Below are positions 13,041 through 26,591 of a stretch of DNA of 64,000 nucleotides, piece by piece. Source of the stretch: Salinibacterium sp. M195 (GTDB lineage Bacteria > Actinomycetota > Actinomycetes > Actinomycetales > Microbacteriaceae); the NCBI RefSeq assembly GCF_019443965.1, contig NZ_CP040814.1:124001-188000 (forward strand). Direction: 5' to 3'. Every line of letters begins with the position of its first letter. Position 1 is the stretch's first letter. The notes under the pieces are model-generated. The model was not told the DNA's origin and ran no database searches. It was given only the letters and a program-made list of their open reading frames with translations. Made by a program: the position numbers and the translations under genes.

Positions 13041-13048
13041 CTATGGCT
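13027..13048. repeat. GGCTAT tandem repeat
   Basis: Three GGCTAT units plus GGCT, overlapping the stop codon of the acetyltransferase (TAG at 13041-13043 on the minus strand). Confidence 0.8.
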
Positions 13049-13607
13049 GAAAAGTGCCGGCGATGAACGAGAGGGAGTCGCCACTCCGCGAAATCTGGCG
13101 GAAGCCTAAGCGCTCCGCAAGCGCAATCGAGGCCACGTTATTCTCTTCAATTACCGCGACCAACCACTGAACTTTCACTCTCGTGAATGCAAATTCCATC
13201 ATTGCCGCAGCAGCCTCACCGGCGTAACCCTGACCGTACTGGTCAGGATGCAAAATCCAACTGATTTCGGCTGACCGACTCGAGAGCGCTACCGAACGCA
13301 AGTGAAGAGATACGTCACCGATGAGCTCACCCTCATGTTCGATGGCAAGAGCCAGGAAGTCATCGGCCTGCTTGAGCACAACATGTTTGGTGCGGTGCTG
13401 CAGGTGCGCATAGGACTCGATGCGCGTGCGCTCGGGCCAGGAGGTGAATTCCTGCACATCCGACGACGATTGAATTTCGAACCACCGTGTTGCGTCGTCA
13501 ATGCGGTGCGGGCGCAATCTCAGTCGTTCGGTCTCCAGCGTCGGCGCCGCAATGGCGCGTTCCAGAGAGGAACCGCGGATGAAACGGGGGCGTTGGGCAA
13601 AGCGCAT
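13041..13607 (-). CDS. GNAT-family N-acetyltransferase (RimJ/RimL type)
   Basis: 188 residues. ETERLRLRPHRIDDA is the typical opening of the RimJ/RimL-like Acetyltransf_3 branch. The acetyl-CoA loop appears as DQYGQGYAGEAAAAMMEFAF, followed by VIEENNVASIALAERLGF. Such enzymes acetylate the N-terminus of ribosomal proteins or small molecules; the substrate cannot be predicted. GGTGGAA lies nine bases before the ATG. It stands alone upstream of the heliorhodopsin gap and ends inside a GGCTAT repeat. Confidence 0.85.
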   Translation of the reverse strand: MRFAQRPRFIRGSSLERAIAAPTLETERLRLRPHRIDDATRWFEIQSSSDVQEFTSWPERTRIESYAHLQHRTKHVVLKQADDFLALAIEHEGELIGDVSLHLRSVALSSRSAEISWILHPDQYGQGYAGEAAAAMMEFAFTRVKVQWLVAVIEENNVASIALAERLGFRQISRSGDSLSFIAGTFQP

Positions 13608-13829: not shown

Positions 13830-13908
13830 TGGCGGTTTCATTCAATTGAAAAAGTCCTGATCAGGAACCGCAGTTTGCGAAAGCGCGGAAACCGATTCCA
13901 GGCTAAGC
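13830..13908 (+). repeat. Transposon left end, copy 1
   Basis: It begins TGGCGGTTTCATTC followed by AATTGAA, and 56 bases after the TTTCATTC block carries CCGATTCCAGGCTAAGC. The same two blocks recur at the same 56-base offset at 14840-14918. TGGCGGTTTCATTC is the exact inverse of 14822-14835, so together they look like terminal inverted repeats. Confidence 0.75.
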
Positions 13909-14236
13909 CGCGAATCGCTCCAGTACCAGCCGACATCCCAGCAGTCCGGCCCGAATAGTTCCGCAGCTTTGAAAATCTAAAAAAGGGGACTGCTGAAGGT
14001 TTGGTCACACCGAGCAGCACATCCTCGCGTCGAGGTTCACTCGACGGTGGATTGCGCACCGGATCAGGAGAAACCTGCGCCTGCCTCAATCGACCGTATC
14101 GAATGTGCTCACCAGCAAAAGCGCGGAATCATTTCACCGCGACGCACCACACAGCCAACGCAGCTACTACTGCCCCACGCTCCCGGTCGGGAAACATAGG
14201 ACTCGGCGTGCGCGCCATACCGCGCTGGCCGCGACC

Positions 14237-14380
14237 TTAGGTGAAGAGGCTCACACCACCTGGACCAACCAGCAGTCCCACGACGATGAGCACAATGCCC
14301 CAGAGTAACTGGCGGCGAACGAGCGCGACAATGCCAGCAATAACGAGAACTGCCGCAATGATCCAGAGAAGTGTTGCCAT
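14237..14380 (-). CDS. GPGG-motif small transmembrane protein
   Basis: 47 residues, too short for most gene finders. It starts at the ATG at 14380 with AAGGGAG eight bases upstream. It has two hydrophobic segments (LLWIIAAVLVIAGIVAL and LLWGIVLIVVGLLV) joined by a short basic turn (VRRQ), then the GPGG motif shortly before the end (GPGGVSLFT). Small proteins of this pattern are common in actinobacteria; their function is unknown. It lies between the ends of the deleted transposon copy, so it is either captured cargo or chromosomal sequence between unrelated ends. Confidence 0.75.
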   Translation of the reverse strand: MATLLWIIAAVLVIAGIVALVRRQLLWGIVLIVVGLLVGPGGVSLFT

Positions 14381-14453
14381 GGTGTTGCTCCCTTTCGTTA
14401 GGCTCCGACGACGTTACGCCTACAGCCAGGTCGGGTCTGGTGATGAAACTGTA

Positions 14454-14465
14454 CCCCCCCCCCCC
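14454..14465. repeat. Homopolymer of twelve C
   Basis: A run of twelve cytosines about 75 bases upstream of the small membrane protein gene. Such tracts can vary in length by slippage, or may reflect a sequencing error. Confidence 0.85.
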
Positions 14466-14514
14466 ATTCGGGCTCTGACCACCGTATTTCATCCAAATTG
14501 TCGCGGTGATAACC

Positions 14515-14724
14515 GCGACGGCAAGGGCGCCACGACCGATCTCGCGGGAAGCGCTCCGGCCGCGGGTTTAGCTCGAGCTATCTCGTGCCCGCCCTCGCTA
14601 TCAGCTCATTCAACCTGCGCTCAATAGCCACATTCATCCTGAAGCTCAGGGACGTGGCCATCGAAAAGCCCATCCGCGCACGCCGTCGAAAAGACGAGCA
14701 CAAGCGTCCCCTGGCTCGGACAGG
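14515..14724 (+). pseudogene. Remnant of the IS4-type transposase (internally deleted)
   Basis: The translation near 14515-14545 gives DGKGATTDLAG, matching DGKGAKTDVAG of the intact transposase at 24544. From about 14545 the sequence matches the intact gene from about 26097 to its C-terminus: ALAISSFNLRSIATFILKLR here against ALAISSFNLRSIAAFILKLR there. The roughly 780 bases between these points in the intact gene are missing and the frame is broken. It is a dead copy whose right end survives next to it. Confidence 0.85.
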
Positions 14725-14840
14725 ATCCGCGACCAAAAGAGCAGTCCTGATGGACCGCGAACCGACAGACCTCATCAGGATCTTCGCGCTCAGTCAATTG
14801 AAGGAAGAATGCGGCTTCAAAGAATGAAACCGCCAACTGT
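14724..14840 (+). repeat. Transposon right end, copy 1
   Basis: 117 bases matching 26402-26518 over the same length. The last 88 bases (14753-14840) differ at a single position. It contains TCAATTGAAG and ends GAATGAAACCGCCA (14822-14835) plus ACTGT. The left end of the second copy starts immediately after ACTG. Confidence 0.85.
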
Positions 14841-14918
14841 GGCCCTTTCATTCAATTGAAGTGGCCTTGCAATCATTGGGCACTTTTCGCTTTGGCCTGA
14901 CCCGATTCCAGGCTAAGC
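14840..14918 (+). repeat. Transposon left end, copy 2 (left boundary of the cargo island)
   Basis: TGGCCCTTTCATTC followed by AATTGAA, then CCGATTCCAGGCTAAGC at 14902-14918, with the same spacing as copy 1 at 13830. Two of the first 21 bases differ from copy 1. It abuts the right end of copy 1, separated only by ACTG. Confidence 0.72.
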
Positions 14919-15126
14919 ATAGGTTTTTTCCGCTGCCCGATTCGTTGGCGAACGGGATGAAACCTTTCGAGTGCGTGCGCCCTACACGGCAGATCAGCAC
15001 ACTGTGCTTGAGTTGTCGAAAGCTCAGACACCGCCTGCCGACCCAATTCTTGGCACGCCCGACGTCGTCCCTCAACACTCAGGCAAAAAGGAGCGACTAA
15101 GAGGCTCAATTCGATTAGGAAGATAT

Positions 15127-15960
15127 ATGAGCGCTTCGACGCCGAACACTCCGAGAGAGACGCTCAACGGGGTTTTCGCGGCCCTAGACCTAGTAATCGA
15201 TGATGGTTTGCGCGCGCTGGAGCGAAACAACGGTCAGGTTTCGGCATCGAAGGCGGGCCGTCTGGCTGTGGCGATGAGAGGAACGACGCTCCTCCAAGCC
15301 GGTCAGCTTCTACTTGAGGAAGGCCACTGGGAGGTCGCGGCAGGCGTTGCCCGGCAAATGTTCGAATTGCTTATAAATGTCGAGCACCTTCTTGCTCAGC
15401 CTGATGAAGACGCCGCTTGGGCCGATTACAAAAATTTTGCCATGGCCGCGGATTTGCAGGCGCGGAGGCGAGCAATGACCTTTGCGATGGGGGATGGATA
15501 CCAAGATTCAGATGACTCTGCTGCTGACCTTGATGAATGCTTAGCGTTAGAGGTGTTCGATCAGTTTCGTGACCGGCATCAGAACATTCGCGACAGTTGG
15601 AGCGGAAAGTCAGCCTACAAACTCGCGGAGCAATCGAGCAGAAGCGAGCGGCTTCGGCAGTACCAGTACTATTACCGCACTTGGTCAGCACAGGCTCATG
15701 CAGGCCCGTCATCGATTATCGAATCCTTAGTTCCGCACTCTGCGGCTGGAGCAGTAGAAGATTTCACCGGGCGCACCATCCGAGAGACTTTGCATCTAAT
15801 CGCCATGCTGATTCTTCTTTTCAGCGACCTAGTTATCGCTCTCGACATTCTCGCTCCTTCGACGCACGAAAGAATCTCATCGTGGCGTCAAGCAATGCAA
15901 GACGCAATCTACGAGTGGAGAACTGGAGGTCGCGGTGAGCCGAGCGCCCAAGAGAGCTGA
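15127..15960 (+). CDS. DUF5677-like helical protein (HEPN-like)
   Basis: 277 residues from the ATG at 15127 with AGGA six bases upstream; the open frame extends further back without a ribosome site. The protein is mostly helical. A central YQYYYRTWSAQAHAG segment (about residues 180-195) resembles the YR..S..H pattern of DUF5677 and similar HEPN-like families, and a hydrophobic helix follows (LHLIAMLILLFSDLVIALDI). Some HEPN proteins are RNases in defence systems, but no clear Rx4-6H active site can be claimed here. It is the first cargo gene inside the left end of the island. The family call is from memory of its pattern. Confidence 0.6.
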   Translation: MSASTPNTPRETLNGVFAALDLVIDDGLRALERNNGQVSASKAGRLAVAMRGTTLLQAGQLLLEEGHWEVAAGVARQMFELLINVEHLLAQPDEDAAWADYKNFAMAADLQARRRAMTFAMGDGYQDSDDSAADLDECLALEVFDQFRDRHQNIRDSWSGKSAYKLAEQSSRSERLRQYQYYYRTWSAQAHAGPSSIIESLVPHSAAGAVEDFTGRTIRETLHLIAMLILLFSDLVIALDILAPSTHERISSWRQAMQDAIYEWRTGGRGEPSAQES

Positions 15961-15967
15961 TTCGCGC

Positions 15968-16213
15968 TTACGCGTCGTAACCCTTCCAATACAACGCTTC
16001 CGGCTTCAGATCAAAGGGTTTGTCGTCGCCCAAGTTGATCGTGACTTCCACACTACGGTCGAATCCCTGGCCTGCTGGATAAAAAGCATAAGGCTGGGGG
16101 CTTTGGGACCCCTCCAAAATTGACATCTTGACTGCTAGTATTTTCTGCGCCTCGACGTGTGTCACCGAGTACGTCTGGTCATCGTAGGTCAAGGTCCAAT
16201 TTGAGTTCGGCAT
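15968..16213 (-). CDS. Hypothetical protein, 81 residues
   Basis: A small acidic protein starting at the ATG at 16213 with AGGA about eight bases upstream. It opens NSNWTLTYDDQTYSVTHVEA and ends ALYWKGYDA; no family is recognised. It converges on the DUF5677-like gene, leaving only seven bases between the stops. It could be a partner or inhibitor of a neighbour, but nothing in the sequence proves this. Confidence 0.5.
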   Translation of the reverse strand: MPNSNWTLTYDDQTYSVTHVEAQKILAVKMSILEGSQSPQPYAFYPAGQGFDRSVEVTINLGDDKPFDLKPEALYWKGYDA

Positions 16214-16303
16214 GTAGGCATCCTATCTTCAGGACAACACACCAATGATGGACTGGGGCTCGCGCGACAGACTCGGGGTCCTTGGATAAGACAGAATAGT
16301 GTC

Positions 16304-17176
16304 GTGACTGCATTTGACTTCTATTCAGATAGGTTAGCTGGCACCCACGGCCAAGGAGAGATCCCTCCCAGCACCGTCGCTGGGCTCGTGCGTCTCATCG
16401 AGACCAAGATGCAATCAGACTGGTTCGCGGAAGCATTCCCGACGAAGGGCTCCGATCGAGACTGCGGGACGATCGGCACCAACATTTCCGCAGTCAACAG
16501 CGAAATCCACGCCCTTATCCCGGACTTGGGATGGCCTTGTCGCGTCGATGATGAAATCGACGAAACGGCAGCATTAGACCTCGTGGAATGGGCGGCTCAG
16601 AAAGTGTCCCTTCCTGTGCGCGATCGCTATCACGCGCACTTCGGGCACTGGGAACTAGTGTTCAACCGAAAGGAAGGCGCGACGGCTCTTCGAGACGAGG
16701 TCAATCAATATTTAAGCCGAGGCCGCACGCTCTACTCGATGAACGGGTTGAGGGTGGTGCGATCTGGCACCGCTGAAGTAGCCCGCGTGTTGAACGATCT
16801 AACACCGTCAACCGGCGACACTCACCTCGACGAATTGATAATCAGCGCACGAAATCTTTACAAGTCGCACCATGAGGACGAGCGCGCAACTGGTGTTGAG
16901 AAACTCTGGGACGCGTTCGAACGGATAAAGACGCTGGGCTCTCCCGACAAGCGTGCGGGAATCTCCACCCTGCTCGGAATGGTAGCGCCGGAGAAGCTTC
17001 GGCTTGCGCTTGAAAACGACATGATTGCTGTCACGAAGTTGGGCAACGAGTTCAGCATTCGGCACCACGAGAAAGACACTGAAACTATCCGCGGCACAGA
17101 CCGCGACTATTTCTTTCTGCGGGCTGCCAACTTGATAATCGCATTACTGAGGCATAGCGGGCGATTGCAGCAATAA
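16304..17176 (+). CDS. Abortive-infection-like protein (AbiJ-type C-terminus)
   Basis: 290 residues starting at a GTG with a poor ribosome site. The N-terminal 150 residues are not recognised. The C-terminal half has the layout of Abi C-terminal/AbiJ-like families: a helix GVEKLWDAFERIKTL (about residues 193-207), then EFSIRHHEKDTE and a final helix FFLRAANLIIALLRH. In phage-defence Abi proteins this region carries a conserved R/H-rich motif. It converges on the OLD nuclease, 82 bases between stops. Defence function is inferred from this similarity and the context. Confidence 0.6.
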   Translation: MTAFDFYSDRLAGTHGQGEIPPSTVAGLVRLIETKMQSDWFAEAFPTKGSDRDCGTIGTNISAVNSEIHALIPDLGWPCRVDDEIDETAALDLVEWAAQKVSLPVRDRYHAHFGHWELVFNRKEGATALRDEVNQYLSRGRTLYSMNGLRVVRSGTAEVARVLNDLTPSTGDTHLDELIISARNLYKSHHEDERATGVEKLWDAFERIKTLGSPDKRAGISTLLGMVAPEKLRLALENDMIAVTKLGNEFSIRHHEKDTETIRGTDRDYFFLRAANLIIALLRHSGRLQQ

Positions 17177-17258
17177 CGTCACTTGGAATGCACCCAGCGG
17201 CGCCACTCTCATCAAGGCTGGCCACAAAAGCGTCTCAGCGGACGTCGTCCCTTCCGAC

Positions 17259-19730
17259 CTACTCCCCCTCGGCCAGACCGTCGGAAGAACTTTCGAAGCT
17301 AACCGCAGCACTGGAATCTGCATCGGTGGTCTTCGACGTAGTTTCCGCCTGCTCAATTCTCTCGCCCAAAGGGGAAAGGATTGAGGCCGCTGGATCCTTT
17401 GTGGCATCGTCTTGATACGACAATCGCTCACCAGTTGCGAATGCACGGATCTCGTCACGGAACGCTGCGAACCGTGGCACGCTGGGATTGCTGAGGTCAG
17501 TTAGCTCATAGGTGCGGGTTATGGATTGGATTCTGCTGAGCATGTCGCTGGCGAAGTTGACGCTTGCAATAGCGACTTCAATTTCCTTAAGCAGCTTCCT
17601 CGCGTCGTGCTTCTTCATTCCGTGCGGATGATTTCGAGAGAAATTTTTGACGGCGCGTTTGAGCCGGTCATCTGTTCGGTTCCGCGCCTCCTCATCGAAA
17701 GCGTCCTCCAGCATCTCGGTAAGGAGCGCGAGCAAAGAGCTGAAACGCTCTCGAAGCTCAGTTGAACCGTCTGTTTGCCCGTCGATATCGAGAAGCGAAA
17801 CAACCTCACGAGCTAGTCCGGCCTTTTCGATGTGTTCAGTTGGAAAGCTGACCCTGAAGCACGTGTCGATAGCATTCCAAACTCGCCCGCCATTTTTAGT
17901 GAGCTCTGACCTCAGCGCTTCAACGTTGAAGGTGGAAGTGTCGATATCAGCAAGGTCGACGAAACGCGCTAGGAAGTTAAGTGCCGCACGATGCGCAATC
18001 GGAACCGGTAGTAAGTCTTCGATTTCTTGGACGACGACGTGGTCGTCGAATTCCAGGCCTGATTCGAGAGCCCATTGATCCATCCGGACGATGCATTGAT
18101 CCCGTAGTACTCGTTTCTTCCGAGCTTCTCCTCGCTTGAGAACTCGTTCGGCATCTTTACCTGCCTTGTCACCATCGAGCAACGCAACACACGGCGGTTT
18201 TATCGTGTCTCGACCTCGTGCTAGATAGACGAGATACGGAATTCCGTCTGCCCCTCCTGACGCGACCACGGTCACGTCATTGAGGTTTAGAACGTTGGCG
18301 GTAGTTTTTTCGCGTTTGGCTATGTGAGCCGAAAGGCCAGCTATCAAGACTTGATCAGCAAGCCCTTCGACGAACAAATTGCTACCACCTATGAAAGCAG
18401 TCTCGGCGACATGCGCCCCGAGGGAGGAGCGCAAGGGCTCATACCTATTGTTCGCGGCATCGCGGACAACTCGGGTTCCTTCGTCTTCGGAACCTTTATC
18501 GAGAACCCGAATCCGTTGGGGGGCGTTCTTGTCGATCAGGAATGGGGAGTGAGTCACATAGACAACCTGACTTTGTTGTCCTCCGTTCTCCGGAACCGCG
18601 TACTCCTGGAGCACCCTCAAGAGGTCTTGTTGACCAGCGCTTGAAAGAAACGCATCCGGCTCGTCGAGAAGTAGAATGTCGGGCTTGGTATTTTTGATCC
18701 GGTGAGCAGTGAGCTGCACAAAGTAGCTCAGGAAGAACCTCAGGCCTTGGCTCCGCTCTGCGAATGAATACTTCGAGGCCGTGCGGTCGCGAATGGTGAA
18801 CGCGAGCTCGTGCTCTCGGGCCTCGACAAGCAAGTCGAAGTCTTGGTCCTGAGTCCACCACCGCTGAATGTTTAGGTTTTCTTTGATAGCCGAGTTGATT
18901 CCGCCGACAATGGCTTCAACCTGACCTTCTCTACCTGACTTGATGGCTTCGCTCAGCTCAGAGAAGGTTTGCTCGGCGACCCCGGCCGCATCTACGAGGA
19001 GCTCACGAGCGAGCTGGAACTCCGCCTTCCGCTTTTCCTCCGCAGCCACTGTGGCTGGATCTGCTCCAATCGTCAACGATGGCAGAATCGCCTTCCCCAG
19101 CGCCTCTTCCGTGGGTGTGTCCATCCCGAACAGGAGACTAAGCAGCCCGACCCGATTGTTTCGATTCCCTAATGGAGTGTGCGGGGCGCCCGCGAGCTCT
19201 GAGATAGAGACACTATCCGGTATTGCGAGGTCAGTCCTGAGTTCATGGAAAGTCGGAAGCGCTGCTTCGACATGGCTCAACTCGCTCGGGGTAAGTTCGG
19301 TCTTTTCACCGTCGATTACAAGGAACGGAGCTTTGTCACCTGGCCGATACAGCGTGAAATTGTGCGCACTCTTGAGCCAGGCTAGTCCGTCCGGCCATTG
19401 CTCCCCTTCATCCAACGTGAAATTTCCACCAAACTCCGGAAGCCTGATCTCGTTGGTCTTCACCGAATACTGTTCGCTGTATCGACAGAAGTCGGACCTG
19501 TCTATGGGCGTGCCAGTGAGAGCCGCTTTTATCGCCGTGAGGAGTTGACTCTTGCCGGCTTCGTTCGCGCCGACAATGGCGGTGATCTCAGAATCCAGCG
19601 GTACTCGAACGAAGGGAAACCAAGGATCATTGTCCTCCCATGCGGCAGGCTTGCTTGAGTCCCGCGCTTTCAATTCATAGTCGAAATTAAACGATCTGAA
19701 GAATCGAACGTCGACACGGGAGAGTCTCAT
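17259..19730 (-). CDS. OLD-family ATP-dependent endonuclease (ABC ATPase + TOPRIM)
   Basis: 823 residues from the ATG at 19730, with AGGA seven bases upstream. It begins MRLSRVDVRFFRSF, typical of RecF/OLD-like ATPases. Walker A GANEAGKS lies around residues 54-61, and Walker B LLLDEPDAF carries D356/E357. The TOPRIM nuclease domain has E455 in LFVEGLADQ and D519/D521 in LLDGDKAGKD. The C-terminal 230 residues are helical with an acidic tail. OLD proteins cut DNA; some (phage P2 Old, GajA of Gabija) give phage resistance. No UvrD-like GajB partner is adjacent. The length exceeds typical GajA (about 580). Confidence 0.88.
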   Translation of the reverse strand: MRLSRVDVRFFRSFNFDYELKARDSSKPAAWEDNDPWFPFVRVPLDSEITAIVGANEAGKSQLLTAIKAALTGTPIDRSDFCRYSEQYSVKTNEIRLPEFGGNFTLDEGEQWPDGLAWLKSAHNFTLYRPGDKAPFLVIDGEKTELTPSELSHVEAALPTFHELRTDLAIPDSVSISELAGAPHTPLGNRNNRVGLLSLLFGMDTPTEEALGKAILPSLTIGADPATVAAEEKRKAEFQLARELLVDAAGVAEQTFSELSEAIKSGREGQVEAIVGGINSAIKENLNIQRWWTQDQDFDLLVEAREHELAFTIRDRTASKYSFAERSQGLRFFLSYFVQLTAHRIKNTKPDILLLDEPDAFLSSAGQQDLLRVLQEYAVPENGGQQSQVVYVTHSPFLIDKNAPQRIRVLDKGSEDEGTRVVRDAANNRYEPLRSSLGAHVAETAFIGGSNLFVEGLADQVLIAGLSAHIAKREKTTANVLNLNDVTVVASGGADGIPYLVYLARGRDTIKPPCVALLDGDKAGKDAERVLKRGEARKKRVLRDQCIVRMDQWALESGLEFDDHVVVQEIEDLLPVPIAHRAALNFLARFVDLADIDTSTFNVEALRSELTKNGGRVWNAIDTCFRVSFPTEHIEKAGLAREVVSLLDIDGQTDGSTELRERFSSLLALLTEMLEDAFDEEARNRTDDRLKRAVKNFSRNHPHGMKKHDARKLLKEIEVAIASVNFASDMLSRIQSITRTYELTDLSNPSVPRFAAFRDEIRAFATGERLSYQDDATKDPAASILSPLGERIEQAETTSKTTDADSSAAVSFESSSDGLAEGE

Positions 19731-20620
19731 GGAAGCATCCTTTGGGTGGATTAGTGAGTGACATTCACAGTTTGGCAGGAAGCACCGACATTCCAAACAT
19801 GTTGTGAGCCGAGTCGCCCCGCTTCCCTCCAGTTCTCCGCATCGTAAAGTCGCGCGGGGTCGAGGTGCGTGAAGAAGAAGAAGAAGAAGAAGGCAACGGG
19901 CGCGACGCCTACTTCTAAGCCGGCGATCCCTCCATCACAACTGAGGTTGACGAAGCGCGCGTTAGGGTTTTTGCTAAAAGTTCCCGCCTTAGAAAGAGGG
20001 GGTTTGTGTCTATTACGACAGATGGTCCAACAAAATATCCCGTCCATGTCTCGGAGCGCAGAACCACTAGCGAGCGCCACCAATACCTGAGAGATTTCGT
20101 AGCATTCGACCAAGAGACCCAGCAGCGGTTTCGGACTGCAAGCTCATGGTTGCGTCAGCTACTTACCGGCCGCTCCGAACAAAACAGCGCTCGAACCTGG
20201 CTGTCGATGTAAACGTGCTCTCCGGTGTATGACTATGGGCAATTGTTCACGTCTCATTGAAGCGCGAGTCAATTTCAGCGGGGAGTCGCGCAGCAGCCGT
20301 GGTTGGCAACGGTCCGACCCGCGCGCTCGGGTTGTGCACCCAAGAGTTTATACCCGCGCAATGCTTGGCACTCTGAACTTTGGTCGGCATCCTTCCGTGC
20401 ACCGCGACTAGATCCTCGGTGGCTTCGTGATGAGCGGCCGCGGCGATGCTGGCTGGTCTGGCGAAAGCGAATCTTCGGTGCCCCATTTGGTCACAGCTTG
20501 GAAGTTGGCGACGCCGCCCGATACCGATAAGGGTCCTTATGCCAGCCAGCCGCGCTGGCCGTCGGATCAGTCGGCCCGGCGGCCAACTGCGCCAAGGACC
20601 AAACTGGTCGATCCGCATTC
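19731..20620. other. Gap without recognisable genes inside the island
   Basis: About 890 bases. It contains seven GAA repeats at 19871-19891. The open frames crossing it give low-complexity or unrecognised products (for example a seven-Phe run on the minus strand). It may be degraded cargo. Confidence 0.5.
19871..19891. repeat. (GAA)7 microsatellite
   Basis: Seven perfect GAA triplets, about 140 bases upstream of the OLD nuclease start. Confidence 0.9.
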
Positions 20621-20623
20621 GCG

Positions 20624-20803
20624 CTATCGCCGGGAGATCAGGTGGTTCACCACATAGTCGATTTGTTGCGGTGATAATGGTTCCCACCTCGAATACTTTG
20701 GGTGGTCTGGGAATCCCCGTCGAAGCACAATGCGCACCGCCCGTCCATCGTCGTCATAGCCGAGCTCCTGCGCGAGGCCCTTCGGTGTCGTTGCCATTTC
20801 CAT
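20624..20803 (-). CDS. Small putative DNA-binding protein (Lsr2-tail-like)
   Basis: 59 residues from the ATG at 20803. TPKGLAQELGYDDDGRAVRI followed by PDHPKYSRWEPLSPQQIDYV resembles the short helix-loop-helix DNA-binding module (TPKxLAxELG ... LRxxFP ... RWxLT) found in actinobacterial Lsr2-like and phage-related proteins. The ribosome site is weak, so it may be a remnant of a larger gene. It points away from the HIRAN gene. Confidence 0.45.
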   Translation of the reverse strand: MEMATTPKGLAQELGYDDDGRAVRIVLRRGFPDHPKYSRWEPLSPQQIDYVVNHLISRR

Positions 20804-20986
20804 AGACCGATGGTATTCGACCGCAAGAATGCGAGGCGAATTTCCACAAATCGGCCATGTTGGCAATACGCCACCCACCGATTATGCGCGGAAACTAGGA
20901 CCGTCGAGCGGACACGTAGTGCGGCTCCCGTTCTGGGTATTCACTTCAGCCTCAGCCGCGTGACAAGATTCAAGCGGAGGTACACG

Positions 20987-21880
20987 ATGGGATTCTTTGA
21001 TATTTTCAAGCGGTCAAAGTCAGTTGAGCTCGCACATTCTCAAACCGCAGATTCTAAGCCGGGCGATGCGCCAACAGCGGCAACAGCGGCAACAGCGGCA
21101 ACAAAAATCACACTGCACTTCGGTGCGAGCCAGCTCATTCAGGTGGCGGGCACGACGACCAATTCGAAGGACGCAGCAGTCGCGCTAGTGCGACGCCATG
21201 AGCTCGGCGAGCGAGTCGCCTTGTACGTCGCCGGCACATTGCAACGGGAACCCGAAAACGCTTTCGATCCCCAAGCAATCGCAGTGCTAGTTGAGGGTGA
21301 CCGGATTGGATATGTTCCCGGCTACGTCGCCAAAGAATTGTCATTGACGGTGGGCGCCAGCATGACCGTGCCGGTCCAATTGTTCCGTGCCGATTTAGGC
21401 AAGGGAGTGCGAGTTGAGGCTTTTTCCTGGTTGGGGCACGACGATCCGCAGTGGCAGTACAGCACCGAAAGCCCGCCAGCAATGACCCCGGCGCAAAAGC
21501 GTATGGCTGCGCACGAATCCAGTTCCGCGATGGTGCATGATGCCATTGCTGATGGCGGCTCGCGTGCAGAGCAGTTCAAGGCTGGGATGGTTAAGGGAGT
21601 CCATTATCTTGAGCTGGTTGAACCCATCAAGGAGCTGAAACGGGAAGGCAGGCTCATTGAGGCCCTAACGCTGTGTGAAGCCGCCATCAAAGGCGCCGAA
21701 CATAGCCGCGACGGCAGGGAGCCCGCCCCCTGGTACACCGAACAGGCCGCGATAATTCACCGCAAGCTCGGCCAAAAGGATCAGGAGATTGCCGTCCTGA
21801 AGCGCTGGCTATCGTTCGTCCCTTCCAAAGAAAGGGACCAGACCCAGCTCGGTCAACGTCTGGCAAAAATCACGGGTTAG
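20987..21880 (+). CDS. HIRAN-domain protein
   Basis: 297 residues from the ATG at 20987, with GGAGG six bases upstream. The start MGFFDIFKRSK is followed by a low-complexity linker of AAT repeats. The HIRAN domain spans about residues 65-145 (LYVAGTLQREPENAFDPQAI, then DRIGYVPGYVAKEL). The C-terminal third is helical, TPR-like (GRLIEALTLCEAAIKGAE). HIRAN domains recognise DNA ends, stalled forks or damaged DNA and are often linked to nucleases or helicases. Its stop overlaps by four bases that of a convergent GIY-YIG gene, so the two may be a functional pair. Confidence 0.85.
   Translation: MGFFDIFKRSKSVELAHSQTADSKPGDAPTAATAATAATKITLHFGASQLIQVAGTTTNSKDAAVALVRRHELGERVALYVAGTLQREPENAFDPQAIAVLVEGDRIGYVPGYVAKELSLTVGASMTVPVQLFRADLGKGVRVEAFSWLGHDDPQWQYSTESPPAMTPAQKRMAAHESSSAMVHDAIADGGSRAEQFKAGMVKGVHYLELVEPIKELKREGRLIEALTLCEAAIKGAEHSRDGREPAPWYTEQAAIIHRKLGQKDQEIAVLKRWLSFVPSKERDQTQLGQRLAKITG
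21072..21103 (+). repeat. 9-base coding minisatellite (CAACAGCGG)
   Basis: Three full CAACAGCGG units plus a partial one, encoding TAATAATAAT in the linker of the HIRAN protein. The repeat could change length in frame. Confidence 0.85.
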
Positions 21881-22824
21881 GTGCTTGAGTCCGCACCGTT
21901 GAAGATGCTTCCGTCCGGCACTGAGCGTCCCTGTTTCCACTGGTCAAAGAGGTGGCGACTCTTGAGTTCCGACCAACCAAGCGCGCCCGATCCTCCGAAG
22001 ACATCCAACGGGCTGGACGATGTTTCCCAATAGTCACCGGTGCGTCCGTCGATTATCAAGGGGCCGGGGCCCAAGAGAAGCGCCCCTGAATTCGGTTGAG
22101 TGTCGATCTCCCACCCATAGCTGCGCCGTCGAACCCGCCACGCCACTGAATCTGGGTCTACTTCGGGGTTTACGTCTGCATCGTCGTCGAAATACCTGAA
22201 GATGAATTCAACGATGTCTTTCATAGCTGGTGGGGATTGAAGGGGTGCGCTTCCTACGTGCGTCCTTGCCTGATCGGCCATCACCGCTCGGGCCGCCGAT
22301 AGCCTCCGTGAAGGGTTCGGCACATCTTTGAGGTTCAATGGTGGCTGTAGGCGCGCCAAGATTGCGCGTTCGACGAGGACCAAACTCGAAACGCTTTCGG
22401 GCGCAGCCCAAACTGCGATTCTGAGATTCGATTGCATCCATTCAGTTAGCTGCTCGTCACCGGTTTGTTCAAGCGCGAAGTTTGTGAAGTTTCCCGGTTT
22501 TGCGACGTTTCGGGGAATTGCAACGAGATGCAACGGGCCTCTCAACAAGGCGGCCAACGACCGCCGCAGGGTCGAGCTGCCTGTTTTGCCCGTGGCGAAA
22601 TGGGTGCTGACGTCGCGGGAGACAAGGCTGCGTTCCGCCTTGCCAACATAAAGTGGGCCGTCAAACCACTCGAAGCCCAACTCATCCCATGCTTCGTTAG
22701 AGGCGTAAACGGCGTAGAGGCCTCGCCTATTTGGCACATACTTCAGCGCATCCGCGATTGCTCCCGTCGCACCGCCGAGGGCTGCAAGTGCTTCGATCAG
22801 ATGAGAATCTGCAACGTTAGACAT
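21877..22824 (-). CDS. GIY-YIG nuclease-family protein with YrhB/Imm35-like C-terminus
   Basis: 315 residues from the ATG at 22824; a GTG at 22842 is the alternative. The GIY-YIG core appears as GLYAVYASNEAWDELG ... GPLYVGKAERSL (about residues 35-70), with the variant GLY/YVG pair and a downstream Arg- and Leu-rich helix. The C-terminal part (about 200-300) contains LLLGPGPLIIDGRTGDYWET, which resembles YrhB/Imm35-type domains; that similarity is tentative. GIY-YIG enzymes cut DNA in repair, restriction or mobile elements. It overlaps the convergent HIRAN gene by four bases. Confidence 0.7.
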   Translation of the reverse strand: MSNVADSHLIEALAALGGATGAIADALKYVPNRRGLYAVYASNEAWDELGFEWFDGPLYVGKAERSLVSRDVSTHFATGKTGSSTLRRSLAALLRGPLHLVAIPRNVAKPGNFTNFALEQTGDEQLTEWMQSNLRIAVWAAPESVSSLVLVERAILARLQPPLNLKDVPNPSRRLSAARAVMADQARTHVGSAPLQSPPAMKDIVEFIFRYFDDDADVNPEVDPDSVAWRVRRRSYGWEIDTQPNSGALLLGPGPLIIDGRTGDYWETSSSPLDVFGGSGALGWSELKSRHLFDQWKQGRSVPDGSIFNGADSST

Positions 22825-23102
22825 TAGTCCGCGAGCCTCCACACATGCTTTAGCAAGAATCGAATTCGTGCACGCTCGGATAGGTGATCACCCGTCCGAA
22901 GCATAGCTTTGACGATATCCACCGACTCTCCCGCCCGAACGCTTAAATGGCGCCCCTTAGGCAATTCGCGTGCCGGCTTGTCGACTCCGCTCGCTACAGC
23001 TTAGAGATCCTGATCACCTCGCTGTCGCAAGCGTATCGAGTACATTCGATTTCGGAAATGCCCCATTTTCGGGGCACCACCGGGTCTGACAGCCCACGAG
23101 GG
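22825..23102. other. Gap with terminator-like hairpin
   Basis: About 280 bases without a recognisable gene. TGCCCC (23059-23064) pairs with GGGGCA (23071-23076). Read on the minus strand it sits about 27 bases after the HTH gene stop and could end its transcript. Confidence 0.5.
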
Positions 23103-23372
23103 CTATGAGCGAGACCAGAGCGGGCCCAGCTCGTGTTCAAGCTTCGCCAACGTGACGATGTCTGGCCAAGATTTACCCTGCAAGACAGCCCCGATCGTTG
23201 CCCGGTCAACGCCGGTCGTCGTCGCGATTTCGCGAATACTGCGCACCCCAATGGCACCGCGGAGGTTCAACACGAGCTGTCTGGCTTTCTCCGCGACCGG
23301 ATCAGCGCACGGCACTTCGGGCCAGTCCTCACACAATTCGGCCGGAAGGGCGCGCGAAGGGCGAGGACTCAT
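23103..23372 (-). CDS. Small helix-turn-helix protein
   Basis: 89 residues from the ATG at 23372; the open frame extends further upstream but those residues look unlike a protein. After a Pro-rich start come VAEKARQLVLNLRGAIGVRS and the helix-turn-helix IREIATTTGVDRATIGAVLQ, then GKSWPDIVTLAKLEHELG. This resembles short actinobacterial XRE-like proteins. It may regulate the mobile-element genes that start 189 bases away on the other strand. The ribosome site is weak. Confidence 0.65.
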   Translation of the reverse strand: MSPRPSRALPAELCEDWPEVPCADPVAEKARQLVLNLRGAIGVRSIREIATTTGVDRATIGAVLQGKSWPDIVTLAKLEHELGPLWSRS

Positions 23373-23560
23373 GCATCGAGCGTAGCGGCAATGTCGGTGG
23401 TCACGGTGATAGTTGATGGCTGTAGTTATAACCACTAGTTGTTGGGAGCGCGGGCGAATGAACTTCAGTCGCAAAACGTCTTGCGTTCGCCTTGTTGACG
23501 AACAGGATTCCGGCAACGAACGGGAAAAGTCCCCACTGACGGAGAATTCGCCGTATAGAG

Positions 23561-24547
23561 ATGGATGTGAAGACATCCACCAAAACCTCATCGACAAAAC
23601 GCCCCGCTCAGACCGCCGCTTCGGGTACCGGGATGGCACTCTCTGCCGCGGAGGTCATCGCTCAGTTGACTAAACGCCATAAGCCGAAACAGCACCGGCT
23701 CGCGTGGGACGAAGCGCGCCCTTTCGTCATGAATGCCGTCACCACCACGGCTCTGGCGAGCAATCGTGACGCCAGCAAGCTGATGCGCATTGCCGCACCT
23801 TTCGTGATGTGGTGCGTCGAAGAGCATGGCCTTGAACTCCGCGATGAGCTCATCTTCGCGCCGACCCTCATCGACCGCTATTGCACCACAGCATTTACTC
23901 GCGAGGGCACTGGCGGCACGTACCGGTCGGTGCTTCTGGCAATCTCTGCCTCGGTTCTGCCCAACTCGCGCCCCAAACTAACCGCGATGCACAAGCGCAA
24001 GATACAAGCCCCCTACACAACGGCCGAGATGGAGGCCCATGCCCTATGGGCCGCGGGACAGAAAACTGCACTCTCCCGCCACCGCTGCATGCTGCTTGTC
24101 GCATTCACCGCTGGCGCTGGGCTTCAGCCTGGTGAACTGCGCACTCTTCGCCGCACCGACGTCACAATCGACGAAGACGGCGTGCTCGTGCGAGTTCGCG
24201 GCAGAAACGCGCGTTCTGTGCCCATGCTTCGAGAATGGGAAGAGTGGGCACAGCTTCTGGTCAACGGGTATCCCGAGGCCGAGTTGCTGTGGGGCGGGCC
24301 GCGTGCGCCCAGTGGCAACAACATGGTGAGCGATTTCATGTACCGAACCATGGGTGTCGTCCCCGCGCTCACACGGCTTCGCGCGACTTGGACTACTACC
24401 CATCTCGGGATGGGTACTCCAATTAAAGAACTTCTCCGCGCTGGCGGTATGGCCCAATTCGAGAACCTCAACCAATACCTGACCTATGTAGAGGCCGCGC
24501 CAATGGCCGAGTACCGAATGACGCTGCGGGGTGCTGAAGGCCCTTGA
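23561..24547 (+). CDS. Tyrosine-recombinase-like protein of the transposon
   Basis: 328 residues. The C-terminal half follows the tyrosine recombinase plan: AFTAGAGLQPGELRTLRRTD with the first catalytic Arg (R194), RGRNARSVPM, then LRATWTTTHLGMGTPIKELL and the Tyr region ENLNQYLTYV. The usual HxxR reads TRLR, so the catalytic His is missing, and the second His (LLGH) reads LLRA. It is either strongly diverged or a DNA-binding helper. Its TGA stop overlaps the TTG start of the transposase (TTGA at 24544-24547), so the two are translated as a pair. Confidence 0.7.
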   Translation: MDVKTSTKTSSTKRPAQTAASGTGMALSAAEVIAQLTKRHKPKQHRLAWDEARPFVMNAVTTTALASNRDASKLMRIAAPFVMWCVEEHGLELRDELIFAPTLIDRYCTTAFTREGTGGTYRSVLLAISASVLPNSRPKLTAMHKRKIQAPYTTAEMEAHALWAAGQKTALSRHRCMLLVAFTAGAGLQPGELRTLRRTDVTIDEDGVLVRVRGRNARSVPMLREWEEWAQLLVNGYPEAELLWGGPRAPSGNNMVSDFMYRTMGVVPALTRLRATWTTTHLGMGTPIKELLRAGGMAQFENLNQYLTYVEAAPMAEYRMTLRGAEGP

Positions 24548-26301
24548 GCACAAGAACTGAATCAAGCAAAATTGCCCTTGCCCTATGCGAGCAGCGGATG
24601 TTTGACACATTCGGGATGGGCTCCGAAGAACGCGACGACGAACATGCTCTCGGCCCTGTATCCCTGGCGTACCTTCGCAACTCCATCGCGCTCATCGAGA
24701 ATTCCGGAATCAACGACAAAATCATGGAATGGGACGACGGCGCTCGCACTTCGATGGCCGGACGTAAACGTGTGCTGCCATTAACCGCCACCCTGCCCAT
24801 CATGCTGCTCCACATCCAAATGGGGCGCGGCGTCGTCTACTTGGACATCGCAAACACACTCCACCGCGGGTTTGGCGCTAAGCACTTCGAGATGCTGGGG
24901 ATACCCAACCAGCCGTCAGACAAGATGGATTGGTACCACCGTTTCTGGCACGGATTGAAGCGAGTTATCAACCACATCGATCCCTATCCGTTCCCTCTCG
25001 ACGGAAGAATGAAAGCCGGTGAGTACGCCGAGCGACTCAAGGCCATTACGCAGGGTGAAAGCAAGGACGAGCACGAGCGGAATATCGAACGCATCGACTG
25101 GCTCTGCAACCAACTGGTGCTCGCCTCGGCGCGAACCATGCCTAAGGAATTTCTGCGTCAATATCAAGGCAACTGCGCCATCGACGCGAGTCTCATCGCG
25201 GTGCAAGGAAGGCAGAATCCAACAAACCCAGAACTCAACCGAAGCAACCCCGACCCCTTCTCGGGGAGATACCGTCGGGGCGGCAAGCACGACGGCAAAG
25301 GAGCGAAAACTGATGTCGCCGGATACGAAGTCGAAACGGCTACGACCGTGTGGAGTCGCCCCTCTGAAAGCGAGTTGTTCCCATCCGTCGTGACCGCCAT
25401 CAGCTTCCACAAACCTGGCCAGCTTGTAGGCCACGGAATGAAGCTCATCGAACGCCACAAGGCCGCTTTCGACCTTGACCGCTTTCTCGTCATGGCCGAC
25501 CGTGCCTACAACCACAGTCGGGTCGAGACGTTCCATATCCCCGCGCGCAAAGCCGGAGTCGAGCTCGTTATCGACTACAGAAGCAAAGACTTAGGGCTTC
25601 AAGGCGCTTACGCAGACCTCTACCTAGTCGACGGCAACTGGCATGTTCGCAGCATGCCCCACAAGCTCACCGACGCGACCAAAGACCTTGTCGAACTGGA
25701 AAAATCGCGGTCTGAATTCGAGCGAGCTGTTTACAACCAGAAACGCGCTACGCTCCTTGCGCGCTTGAAAAACCGCAGTGCTTACCGCGTGATTGCCAAG
25801 GGTTTGCCCGACCTCGACGGCTACCAACGGTTCACCTATCCAACCGAGTCCCCCGTGCCACTCGCTCCGCTCGACGGCAAGAAAAGCATCGTGATTCCGC
25901 TGCTGATTCCCGAGAGAACCTTCGAGGCGAAAGAACCAGGCGGCAAGTCGCGTGTCCTCCAGCCCCTCAAGCATTTGCAACGGTTCGCCTACATGAGCGA
26001 AGAGTGGGCTAGTTACTACGGCATGCGCAACCTTGTTGAAGCTTCGAACTCGCGTTTCAAAGACGCCAATCAAGAAGACCTCGGGAACACCAAAAAGCGC
26101 TCTGGCCGAGGGTTTAGCTCGAACTACCTTGTCACCGCTCTCGCTATCAGCTCGTTCAATCTGCGGTCGATTGCCGCCTTCATACTGAAGCTCCGTGACA
26201 AAGCCGTCGAGAAGCCCATCCGCGCACGCCGTCGAAAAGACGAGAACAAGCGCCCGCTGGCCCGCCTAGTCACAGCTCAGGCCGCTGCACCGCCAGGGTA
26301 A
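24544..26301 (+). CDS. DDE transposase with IS4-type YREK signature
   Basis: 585 residues from a TTG overlapping the previous stop. The catalytic residues can be placed: D214 in NCAIDASLIAV, D319 in LVMADRAYNH and E499 in YGMRNLVEASNSRFK. The last of these fits the IS4-family signature Y-x2-R-x3-E-x6-K exactly. The N-terminal 200 residues are not like ordinary IS4 transposases, and the protein is longer than most. The basic C-terminus (RARRRKDENKRPLAR) is conserved in the dead copy near 14700. The transposon right end lies 100-217 bases downstream. Confidence 0.85.
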   Translation: MSTRTESSKIALALCEQRMFDTFGMGSEERDDEHALGPVSLAYLRNSIALIENSGINDKIMEWDDGARTSMAGRKRVLPLTATLPIMLLHIQMGRGVVYLDIANTLHRGFGAKHFEMLGIPNQPSDKMDWYHRFWHGLKRVINHIDPYPFPLDGRMKAGEYAERLKAITQGESKDEHERNIERIDWLCNQLVLASARTMPKEFLRQYQGNCAIDASLIAVQGRQNPTNPELNRSNPDPFSGRYRRGGKHDGKGAKTDVAGYEVETATTVWSRPSESELFPSVVTAISFHKPGQLVGHGMKLIERHKAAFDLDRFLVMADRAYNHSRVETFHIPARKAGVELVIDYRSKDLGLQGAYADLYLVDGNWHVRSMPHKLTDATKDLVELEKSRSEFERAVYNQKRATLLARLKNRSAYRVIAKGLPDLDGYQRFTYPTESPVPLAPLDGKKSIVIPLLIPERTFEAKEPGGKSRVLQPLKHLQRFAYMSEEWASYYGMRNLVEASNSRFKDANQEDLGNTKKRSGRGFSSNYLVTALAISSFNLRSIAAFILKLRDKAVEKPIRARRRKDENKRPLARLVTAQAAAPPG

Positions 26302-26401
26302 TCAGCGCCCCAAATTAGATACCGCTTCCGCTACCGCACGACAAAAACAATCCAGCCTGCCCAAAAGCAGGCTTATTCGTCGTTAACGAGAACCCCGGCA
26401 C

Positions 26402-26518
26402 GATCCGCGACCTAAAGTGCCGCCAGGATCGACCGCGAACCGACAGACCTCATCAGGATCTTCGCGCTCAGTCAATTGAAGGAAGAATGCGGCTTCAAAA
26501 AATGAAACCGCCAACTGT
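26402..26518 (+). repeat. Transposon right end, copy 2
   Basis: Matches 14724-14840 over equal length; the last 88 bases differ at one position. The terminal block AATGAAACCGCCA (26501-26513) is the inverse of the left-end block. The next bases, ACTGT, run into the 3' end of tRNA-Met. Confidence 0.88.
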
Positions 26519-26591
26519 AGCTGAGGCGGGATTCGAACCCGCGACCTCACGATTATGAGTCGTGCGCTCTCACCAACTGAGCTACTCAGCC
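26518..26591 (-). tRNA. tRNA-Met (CAT), elongator type
   Basis: A 74-base cloverleaf. Acceptor GGCTGAG pairs with CTCAGCT, so the first pair is G-U instead of G-C. The D-arm is GCTC/GAGC, the anticodon stem CACGA/TCGTG with loop CTCATAA, and the T-arm GCGGG/CCCGC. It lacks the C1-A72 mismatch and GGG/CCC anticodon stem of initiators. A CAT anticodon could also be a lysidine-modified tRNA-Ile, which sequence alone cannot exclude. Its 3' end abuts the transposon right end. Confidence 0.9.

Follow-up and report, generated by a model that had tools for sequence, protein, structure and literature searches.

A cargo transposon family at the 3′ ends of tRNA and tmRNA genes in Actinomycetota, with an inactivated tyrosine recombinase as its probable target selector

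What kind of mobile element pairs a recombinase-like protein with a transposase beside a tRNA gene? The question is raised by an island in a 64-kbp stretch of DNA (the window) from the 3.04-Mbp, single-contig genome of Salinibacterium sp. M195, in which two overlapping genes code for P0001, with the layout of a tyrosine recombinase, and P0002, with the residues of a DDE transposase. An earlier note on the window had proposed a two-protein transposon carrying accessory genes, of a type that it could not place, and this is borne out by the recurrence of the gene pair and by ends shared between elements whose cargo differs. The island belongs to a large family across the Actinomycetota that consists, almost certainly, of transposons homing to the 3′ ends of tRNA genes, and there is a good probability that in these cargo transposons it is the dead recombinase that selects the tRNA gene.

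The element and its target

The transposon occupies positions 14841 to 26513 (+ strand; 11,673 bp), slightly inside the borders of 14840 and 26518 first suggested, as determined from tandem junctions and from its ends and duplication, which sit at a constant position relative to the tRNA (p = 0.005 against shuffled controls). Its left terminal inverted repeat, GGCCCTTTCATT, lies at 14841 to 14852 (+ strand), and the right repeat at 26501 to 26513 (− strand) reads inward from its terminus at 26513, on the complement, as GGCGGTTTCATT with one extra base, a feature of the subfamily of this element; both were located by end search and tandem junctions. The 5-bp target duplication, ACTGT, is present at 14836 to 14840 and at 26514 to 26518. 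On its right side, the element runs directly up to the 3′ end of a tRNA-Met(CAT) gene called by ARAGORN (26517 to 26591, − strand), which the earlier note had not reported, and the right ACTGT covers positions 77 to 73 of this tRNA read on the + strand, which by the numbering that we take to apply here are the discriminator, C74, and three more.

A tandem relic of an earlier element adjoins the transposon on the left (13831 to 14835, + strand; ∼1.0 kbp), with a left end at 13831 flanked by GTTGT, a fragment of a transposase C terminus, and a right end at 14835 whose junction is also ACTGT. The blocks that had been seen to be shared between the ends of the 11.7-kbp stretch and a second copy are genuine direct repeats (14549 to 14718 with 26095 to 26264, 84%; 14721 to 14843 with 26399 to 26521, 92%), and the second copy is this incomplete relic. 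A composite transposon built from the two repeats is ruled out, the left copy being what remains of a whole earlier tandem element. A related genome, G025, has an array of three such elements running up to the tRNA, every junction of which reads GTTGT.

Flanking the island on its left is a chromosomal gene (13041 to 13607, − strand) whose homologues in relatives lie close to tRNA-Met, at distances of 241 bp (G005), 306 bp (G001), and 333 bp (G013), into which no element fits, and of 950 bp in G014. Four genomes of the same genus (G006, G011, G012, and G022) contain extra copies of 41 to 48 nt of the tRNA-Met 3′ end, like the traces of ordinary tRNA integrases, and one of those in G011 lies ∼90 bp beyond a relic of a P0002-type transposase.

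Homing to tRNA and tmRNA 3′ ends

Related loci show the same arrangement. Among 86 loci (88 were examined, with L159 and L165 set aside because the stretch ends too early), 77 have the 3′ end of a tRNA (75) or transfer-messenger RNA (tmRNA; 2) gene downstream of the transposase and on the opposite strand, at a median of 227 bp from the transposase stop (interquartile range, 216 to 245; range, 48 to 645). The targets span tRNAs of eleven amino acids plus tmRNA, the latter also identified by Rfam, and insertion is in a single orientation relative to the tRNA across loci. By contrast, a tRNA is absent from the flanks, up to 1.5 kbp long, of all 20 control transposases of the IS4 clan. These comprise every DDE_Tnp_1 match in 60 genomes from the same family of bacteria (from 7 genomes, with six copies in one). 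With the recurrence across loci, this absence makes a chance association very unlikely. In two distant lineages (L168 in G880 and L257 in G1291), the element adjoins the tmRNA 3′ end, and the acceptor/T-arm part that tmRNA shares with tRNAs may therefore be what is read.

When the 5-bp duplication is held to tRNA positions 73 to 77, 17 of 72 loci have a left end that matches the right end at p ≤ 0.02, where about 1.4 are expected; removing eight repeats to leave 64 distinct places (L054 and L150 being one place) gives 16 of 64, with lengths of 1.6 to 20.3 kbp (9 to 20 kbp in 14 of the 16). Comparing genomes with and without the insertion, as the earlier note had advised, reveals uninterrupted sites in congeners. 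Nine of the 28 genomes of the genus match the joined site from Leifsonia shinshuensis (G379) across the junction, with 35 bp or more on the left side, the best being G1015 (94%), whose uninterrupted site contains one TCCGT; the junction could be read in eight of the nine and is TCCGT in five and TTCGT in three. In most of these sites the common part consists of a terminator-like hairpin and the tRNA side, and the flank farther left differs. The site of the G168 element is spanned at 74% by congener G106, with 13 extra bases at the junction, and the G106 sequence resembles the left flank and duplication of the element in G264.

A conserved gene pair

P0001 (23561 to 24547, + strand; 328 amino acids [aa]) is followed by P0002 (24544 to 26301, + strand; 585 aa), whose TTG start overlaps the P0001 stop so that the two share TTGA at 24544 to 24547, just as had been described. 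A recombinase-like gene stands upstream of the transposase in 56 of 69 loci, which answers the concern that transposase homologues might consistently lack it, and truncated remnants persist in three of the other 13 (L050, L075, and L146). In 43 of the 56, there is a 4-base overlap between the recombinase-like stop and an ATG, GTG, or TTG that lies in frame with the transposase; a script returned 48 NTGA overlaps, 44 of them with such a start codon, and L079 was removed from these as its open frame starts 101 bp past the upstream stop. Ten loci are excluded from the pair counts and from the target parsimony below, namely nine repeats, recognized by a contig equal in length to another in the set (L134, L140 to L145, L148, and L150), and L136, a short contig that closely resembles L134 and whose identity of place is unproven. 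Among the eight phylum-level loci, five have the recombinase-like gene, all with the 4-nt overlap. The recombinase-like and transposase trees are concordant (Mantel r = 0.80; 0 of 2,000 permutations; n = 54), showing that the gene pair coevolves, and the conserved overlap and this coevolution rule out an insertion sequence that landed independently next to an integrase.

Two or three recombinase-like genes are present in 16 loci, and none of the genes lying between two of them is common to all such loci. In L055, L084, and L205, two dead recombinase-like genes overlap in series ahead of the transposase, and a heteromeric selector is possible there. Divergently transcribed upstream of the pair in the window is a regulator with a weak match to the Pfam helix-turn-helix (HTH) family HTH_3, just below the cut-off (23103 to 23639, − strand). 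A divergent upstream open reading frame (ORF) that resembles one in another locus is found in 35 loci (the individual ORFs being unverified), with at least two kinds of sequence, one of them HTH-like, and an annotated regulator occupies the divergent position in both Streptomyces plasmid records opened; the HTH regulator is thus a probable third member of the module.

The two proteins

P0001 has a sub-threshold Pfam match to Phage_integrase, and a profile of 47 relatives matches 4a8e, a XerC-like archaeal recombinase (E = 1.1e-11), and the XerA structure 5hxy (E = 1.5e-4). Its AlphaFold2 model (predicted local distance difference test [pLDDT], 78.8) gives 29 PDB matches in Foldseek at E ≤ 0.001, which are tyrosine recombinases judging by their titles, with modest TM-scores of about 0.34 to 0.48. 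Profile and model together indicate a tyrosine recombinase fold, in agreement with the layout first noticed; the proposal of R194 as the catalytic arginine does not hold, since the box I position maps to residue 189, a glutamine in P0001. At what we take to be the catalytic positions of the 47 proteins, the box I Arg is present in 13, the HxxR His in none, the HxxR Arg in 47, the box III His/Trp in none, and the Tyr in 27 (including 15 of 15 in the set closer to P0001). An initial impression that the box I Arg is lost in every member is therefore wrong, and no protein of the 47 has all five residues. This loss of the active site throughout the aligned relatives goes beyond the earlier note, and the residues mark the P0001 family as catalytically dead.

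P0002 contains D214, D319, and E499 and the Y-x2-R-x3-E-x6-K signature, as the earlier reading had it. All 35 full-length relatives retain D214, D319, E499, R495, and K506, which include the R, E, and K of the motif; the motif Tyr is not invariant. In 26 more divergent relatives, D214 is retained in 23 (2 gaps), D319 in 25, R495 in 25 (1 gap), E499 in 25 (1 gap), and K506 in 21. P0002 itself has no Pfam match and no credible NCBIfam match, and aligning it with P0001 in hhalign gave no result. Its conserved residues identify P0002 as a DDE transposase and its motif as of the IS4 type.

Which protein selects the target

In the mechanism that we favor, P0002 would recognize both ends, free the element, and join it to the target with a 5-bp stagger. 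P0001, which would cut no DNA, would bind the 3′ part of the tRNA gene as tRNA integrases do and position P0002 such that the right end joins at the discriminator base; joining at this base would leave the tRNA intact and permit one orientation only. Later copies would land at the same spot and shift older ones outward, building tandem arrays. We infer catalysis by P0002 and recognition of the target by P0001, and P0001 is, from the comparison of sequences, likely to be the target selector.

The tree concordance means that simple correlations cannot separate P0001 from P0002. Target tRNA similarity has a partial correlation with the recombinase-like tree, corrected for the transposase tree, of r = 0.16 to 0.19, significant by permutation (p ≤ 0.014) in all seven target windows of at least 30 nt, and this value exceeds that of the transposase in all 12 choices of target window; the transposase value, corrected for the recombinase-like tree, is −0.01 to 0.03 and is significant in none of the 12. 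These partial correlations favor the recombinase-like protein as selector, short of proof.

Several observations weigh against a dead recombinase placing a DDE transposase at tRNA genes throughout this family. The partial Mantel effect is small and not significant in five target windows below 30 nt, its permutation test has known weaknesses, and parsimony counts of target changes tie on both trees (16 and 21). Thirteen of the 69 loci are without an intact recombinase-like gene, and five of these, a group that includes loci cut short, show no remnant, among them L207 and L209, which have long upstream sequence and no recombinase-like trace; the remaining unpaired loci are fragments or lie at contig ends. 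Nine of the 86 loci are not next to a tRNA (L049 and L050 among them, as inner members of tandem arrays), the two Streptomyces plasmid copies examined, out of seven, have no tRNA nearby, and in 55 of 72 loci no left end was recovered, partly for shortage of upstream sequence. For P0002, Pfam DDE matches are weak (two DDE families, each matched by 3 of 35 members, and DDE_Tnp_1_6, matched by 6 of 22 divergent relatives with a best E of 2.2e-5), its profile is negative in hhalign against small local IS4-clan sets, and a PDB sequence search with the profile matches no solved structure; the structure-aware search urged for both proteins thus led to Xer-type recombinases for P0001 and to no structure for P0002. 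The AlphaFold model of P0002 is poor (pLDDT, 55) and gave no fold match in Foldseek, and the case for a transposase is made by its motif pattern, by the weak domain matches above, and by the anatomy of the transposon.

The strongest rival holds that the DDE transposase itself reads the tRNA gene and that the recombinase-like protein serves in end binding, transpososome assembly, or regulation. It draws on simple correlations and parsimony, which tie both proteins about equally to the target, and on the eukaryotic Dada DDE transposons, described as inserting at fixed sites in tRNA and small nuclear RNA genes (PMC3706591). We regard it as unlikely, since the partial correlations point to the recombinase-like protein, the gene is retained in 56 of 69 loci, and P0001 has the fold of classical tRNA integrases, with TnsF as a tested example of a dead recombinase acting as selector.

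An ordinary integrative island, in which P0001 is an active integrase, the 5 bp are the crossover, and the DDE protein is a passenger, is highly improbable. Tyrosine integrases classically target tRNA 3′ ends, inverted repeats around a short spacer could resemble core sites, and the Tyr is present in more than half of the P0001 relatives. Set against these are an active site that is complete in none of the 47, on which counts the active-integrase reading of P0001 is rejected, and an invariant DDE triad; moreover, the identical 5-bp copies flanking an element differ between close elements (CTTGT, GTTGT, and ACTGT), as copied target would, and the two sides share 5 to 6 bp rather than a long tRNA 3′ repeat. 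Least credible of all is that the islands have lost their mobility and are dead or domesticated, a reading suggested by the relics and truncated copies in the window, G023, and G025, and contradicted by open frames with invariant catalytic residues, intact duplications, right modules about 85% identical in congeners with partly different cargo, and uninterrupted sites in relatives. Homing in which P0001 guides P0002 remains our preferred reading.

Cargo and distribution

The cargo of the window element includes genes coding for a DUF5677 protein found by domain scan (14971 to 15960, + strand), a PADLOC candidate defense family protein, PDC-S32 (16304 to 17176, + strand; E = 2.3e-35), an AAA ATPase related to GajA/OLD-like defense proteins (17259 to 19796, − strand), and a HIRAN-domain protein with a weak PDC-M03B match (20702 to 21880, + strand), the last two from defense and domain scans, as well as a GIY-YIG family protein (21877 to 22842, − strand) in a block common to the G023 element (75%). 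That 18-kbp relative (L048 in G023) carries SIR2-HerA, type I restriction, specificity, and methylase genes and PDC-S02, in a scan of 9 of its 10 listed ORFs; in the L058, L073, and L087 elements, 10 of the 31 listed cargo proteins were scanned, with one defense match at E ≤ 1e-10. The window element has only 79 bp at the left and 3.4 kbp at the right in common with that of G025, and 92 bp, 3.5 kbp, the 1.1-kbp GIY-YIG block, and 130 bp in common with that of G023; the G023 and G025 elements share longer stretches (5.2, 3.2, and 0.6 kbp). Cargo thus varies between elements and includes antiphage defense. Island genes without the two ends in close relatives, which would have told against a transposon, are not what is seen, as congeners share the ends and the right-hand module and differ in cargo.

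Within the bacterial family, 66 of 398 genomes have relatives of P0002, fragments included; sampled genomes give 15 of 297 for the order, 22 of 345 for the class, and 14 of 296 for the phylum. The samples overlap, contain the genome of the window, and use differing thresholds. Named genera include Cryobacterium, Leifsonia, Agromyces, Salinibacterium, Frigoribacterium, and Aeromicrobium. A search of phage records with P0002 gave no match; seven plasmid records match, all from Streptomyces. Two of these (L262 and L263) have diverged transposase relatives annotated as hypothetical proteins, with the divergent annotated regulator upstream, and in L262 the gene preceding the transposase matches P0001; this type is perhaps a plasmid-homing branch.

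Implications

We lean, by a narrow preference, toward a phylum-wide class of self-targeting elements that need no AAA+ regulator, a dead tyrosine recombinase itself directing an IS4-like DDE transposase to the discriminator base of tRNA and tmRNA genes. Such a class would be a second and independent instance of recombinase-guided DDE transposition and a vehicle for actinobacterial defense genes. It would suggest that an integrase came to select targets for a DDE transposase outside Tn7 as well, and with far less machinery, namely two proteins and a likely regulator. The natural pairs of selector and target make target reading directly testable, and tools for insertion at safe sites could follow. 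The transposase genes recorded as hypothetical proteins in the two Streptomyces plasmids would become part of a vehicle that moves defense systems, including type I restriction, SIR2-HerA, and OLD-like systems.

Comparison with known systems

No description of such a system was found in the openly licensed literature, most subscription papers falling outside this coverage. IS4 family elements have a DDE triad, a long stretch from the second D to the E, and the Y-x2-R-x3-E-x6-K motif, in a single transposase gene without cargo or a strict target. P0002 resembles them in triad, motif, and stretch, but it has no significant profile match, and the family of the window element has cargo, a partner gene, and a strict target. 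In tyrosine-integrase islands at tRNA genes, the catalyst is an active tyrosine recombinase and no DDE transposase is needed; the insertion site at the tRNA 3′ end is the same, whereas the Arg-His-Arg-His/Trp-Tyr set is incomplete in every P0001-type protein, and the window element falls outside this class because the residues for catalysis are lost. In the elements called SEs, a recombinase-fold protein is accessory and the catalyst is again an active tyrosine recombinase. A "tyrosine recombinase fold protein" is named in the part of the SE account available (PMC10214605). Tsy elements combine an active tyrosine recombinase with an active TnsF-like protein, unlike the incomplete active sites and the DDE transposase found here.

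Dada transposons, likened here by description, also use a DDE transposase at fixed sites in tRNA genes; they are eukaryotic, make 6- to 7-bp duplications, and have transposases distantly similar to MuDR, hAT, P, Kolobok, and IS256, and the available portion of their description makes no mention of a recombinase partner (PMC3706591). CyCAST, a Tn7-like CRISPR-associated transposon (CAST), is likewise a DDE-type system homing near a tRNA gene, but according to the excerpted account it uses the selector TnsD with TnsC and inserts 30 to 33 nt downstream of the tRNA end (PMC10293859), whereas the duplication here begins at tRNA position 73.

By analogy, the closest precedent is TnsF of Tn6022, a target selector derived from an inactivated tyrosine recombinase and, as far as the accessible text of that study goes, part of a system that requires TnsA, TnsB, TnsC, and TniQ and targets comM (PMC10293859). 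None of these four transposition proteins was detected in Pfam scans of ten element ORFs and the pair or in NCBIfam scans of eight ORFs and the pair, and the element therefore does not qualify as Tn7-like among the proteins scanned. The two systems are alike in a DDE-type transposase, a protein derived from an inactivated tyrosine recombinase in site choice, target duplication, and one defined chromosomal site; they differ in that the transposase here is IS4-like, its gene overlaps the recombinase-like gene, and the target is the 3′ end of tRNA and tmRNA genes. TnsF and P0001 appear to be the same kind of protein, likened by description rather than by sequence, and the window element probably works as Tn6022 does in its homing through TnsF.

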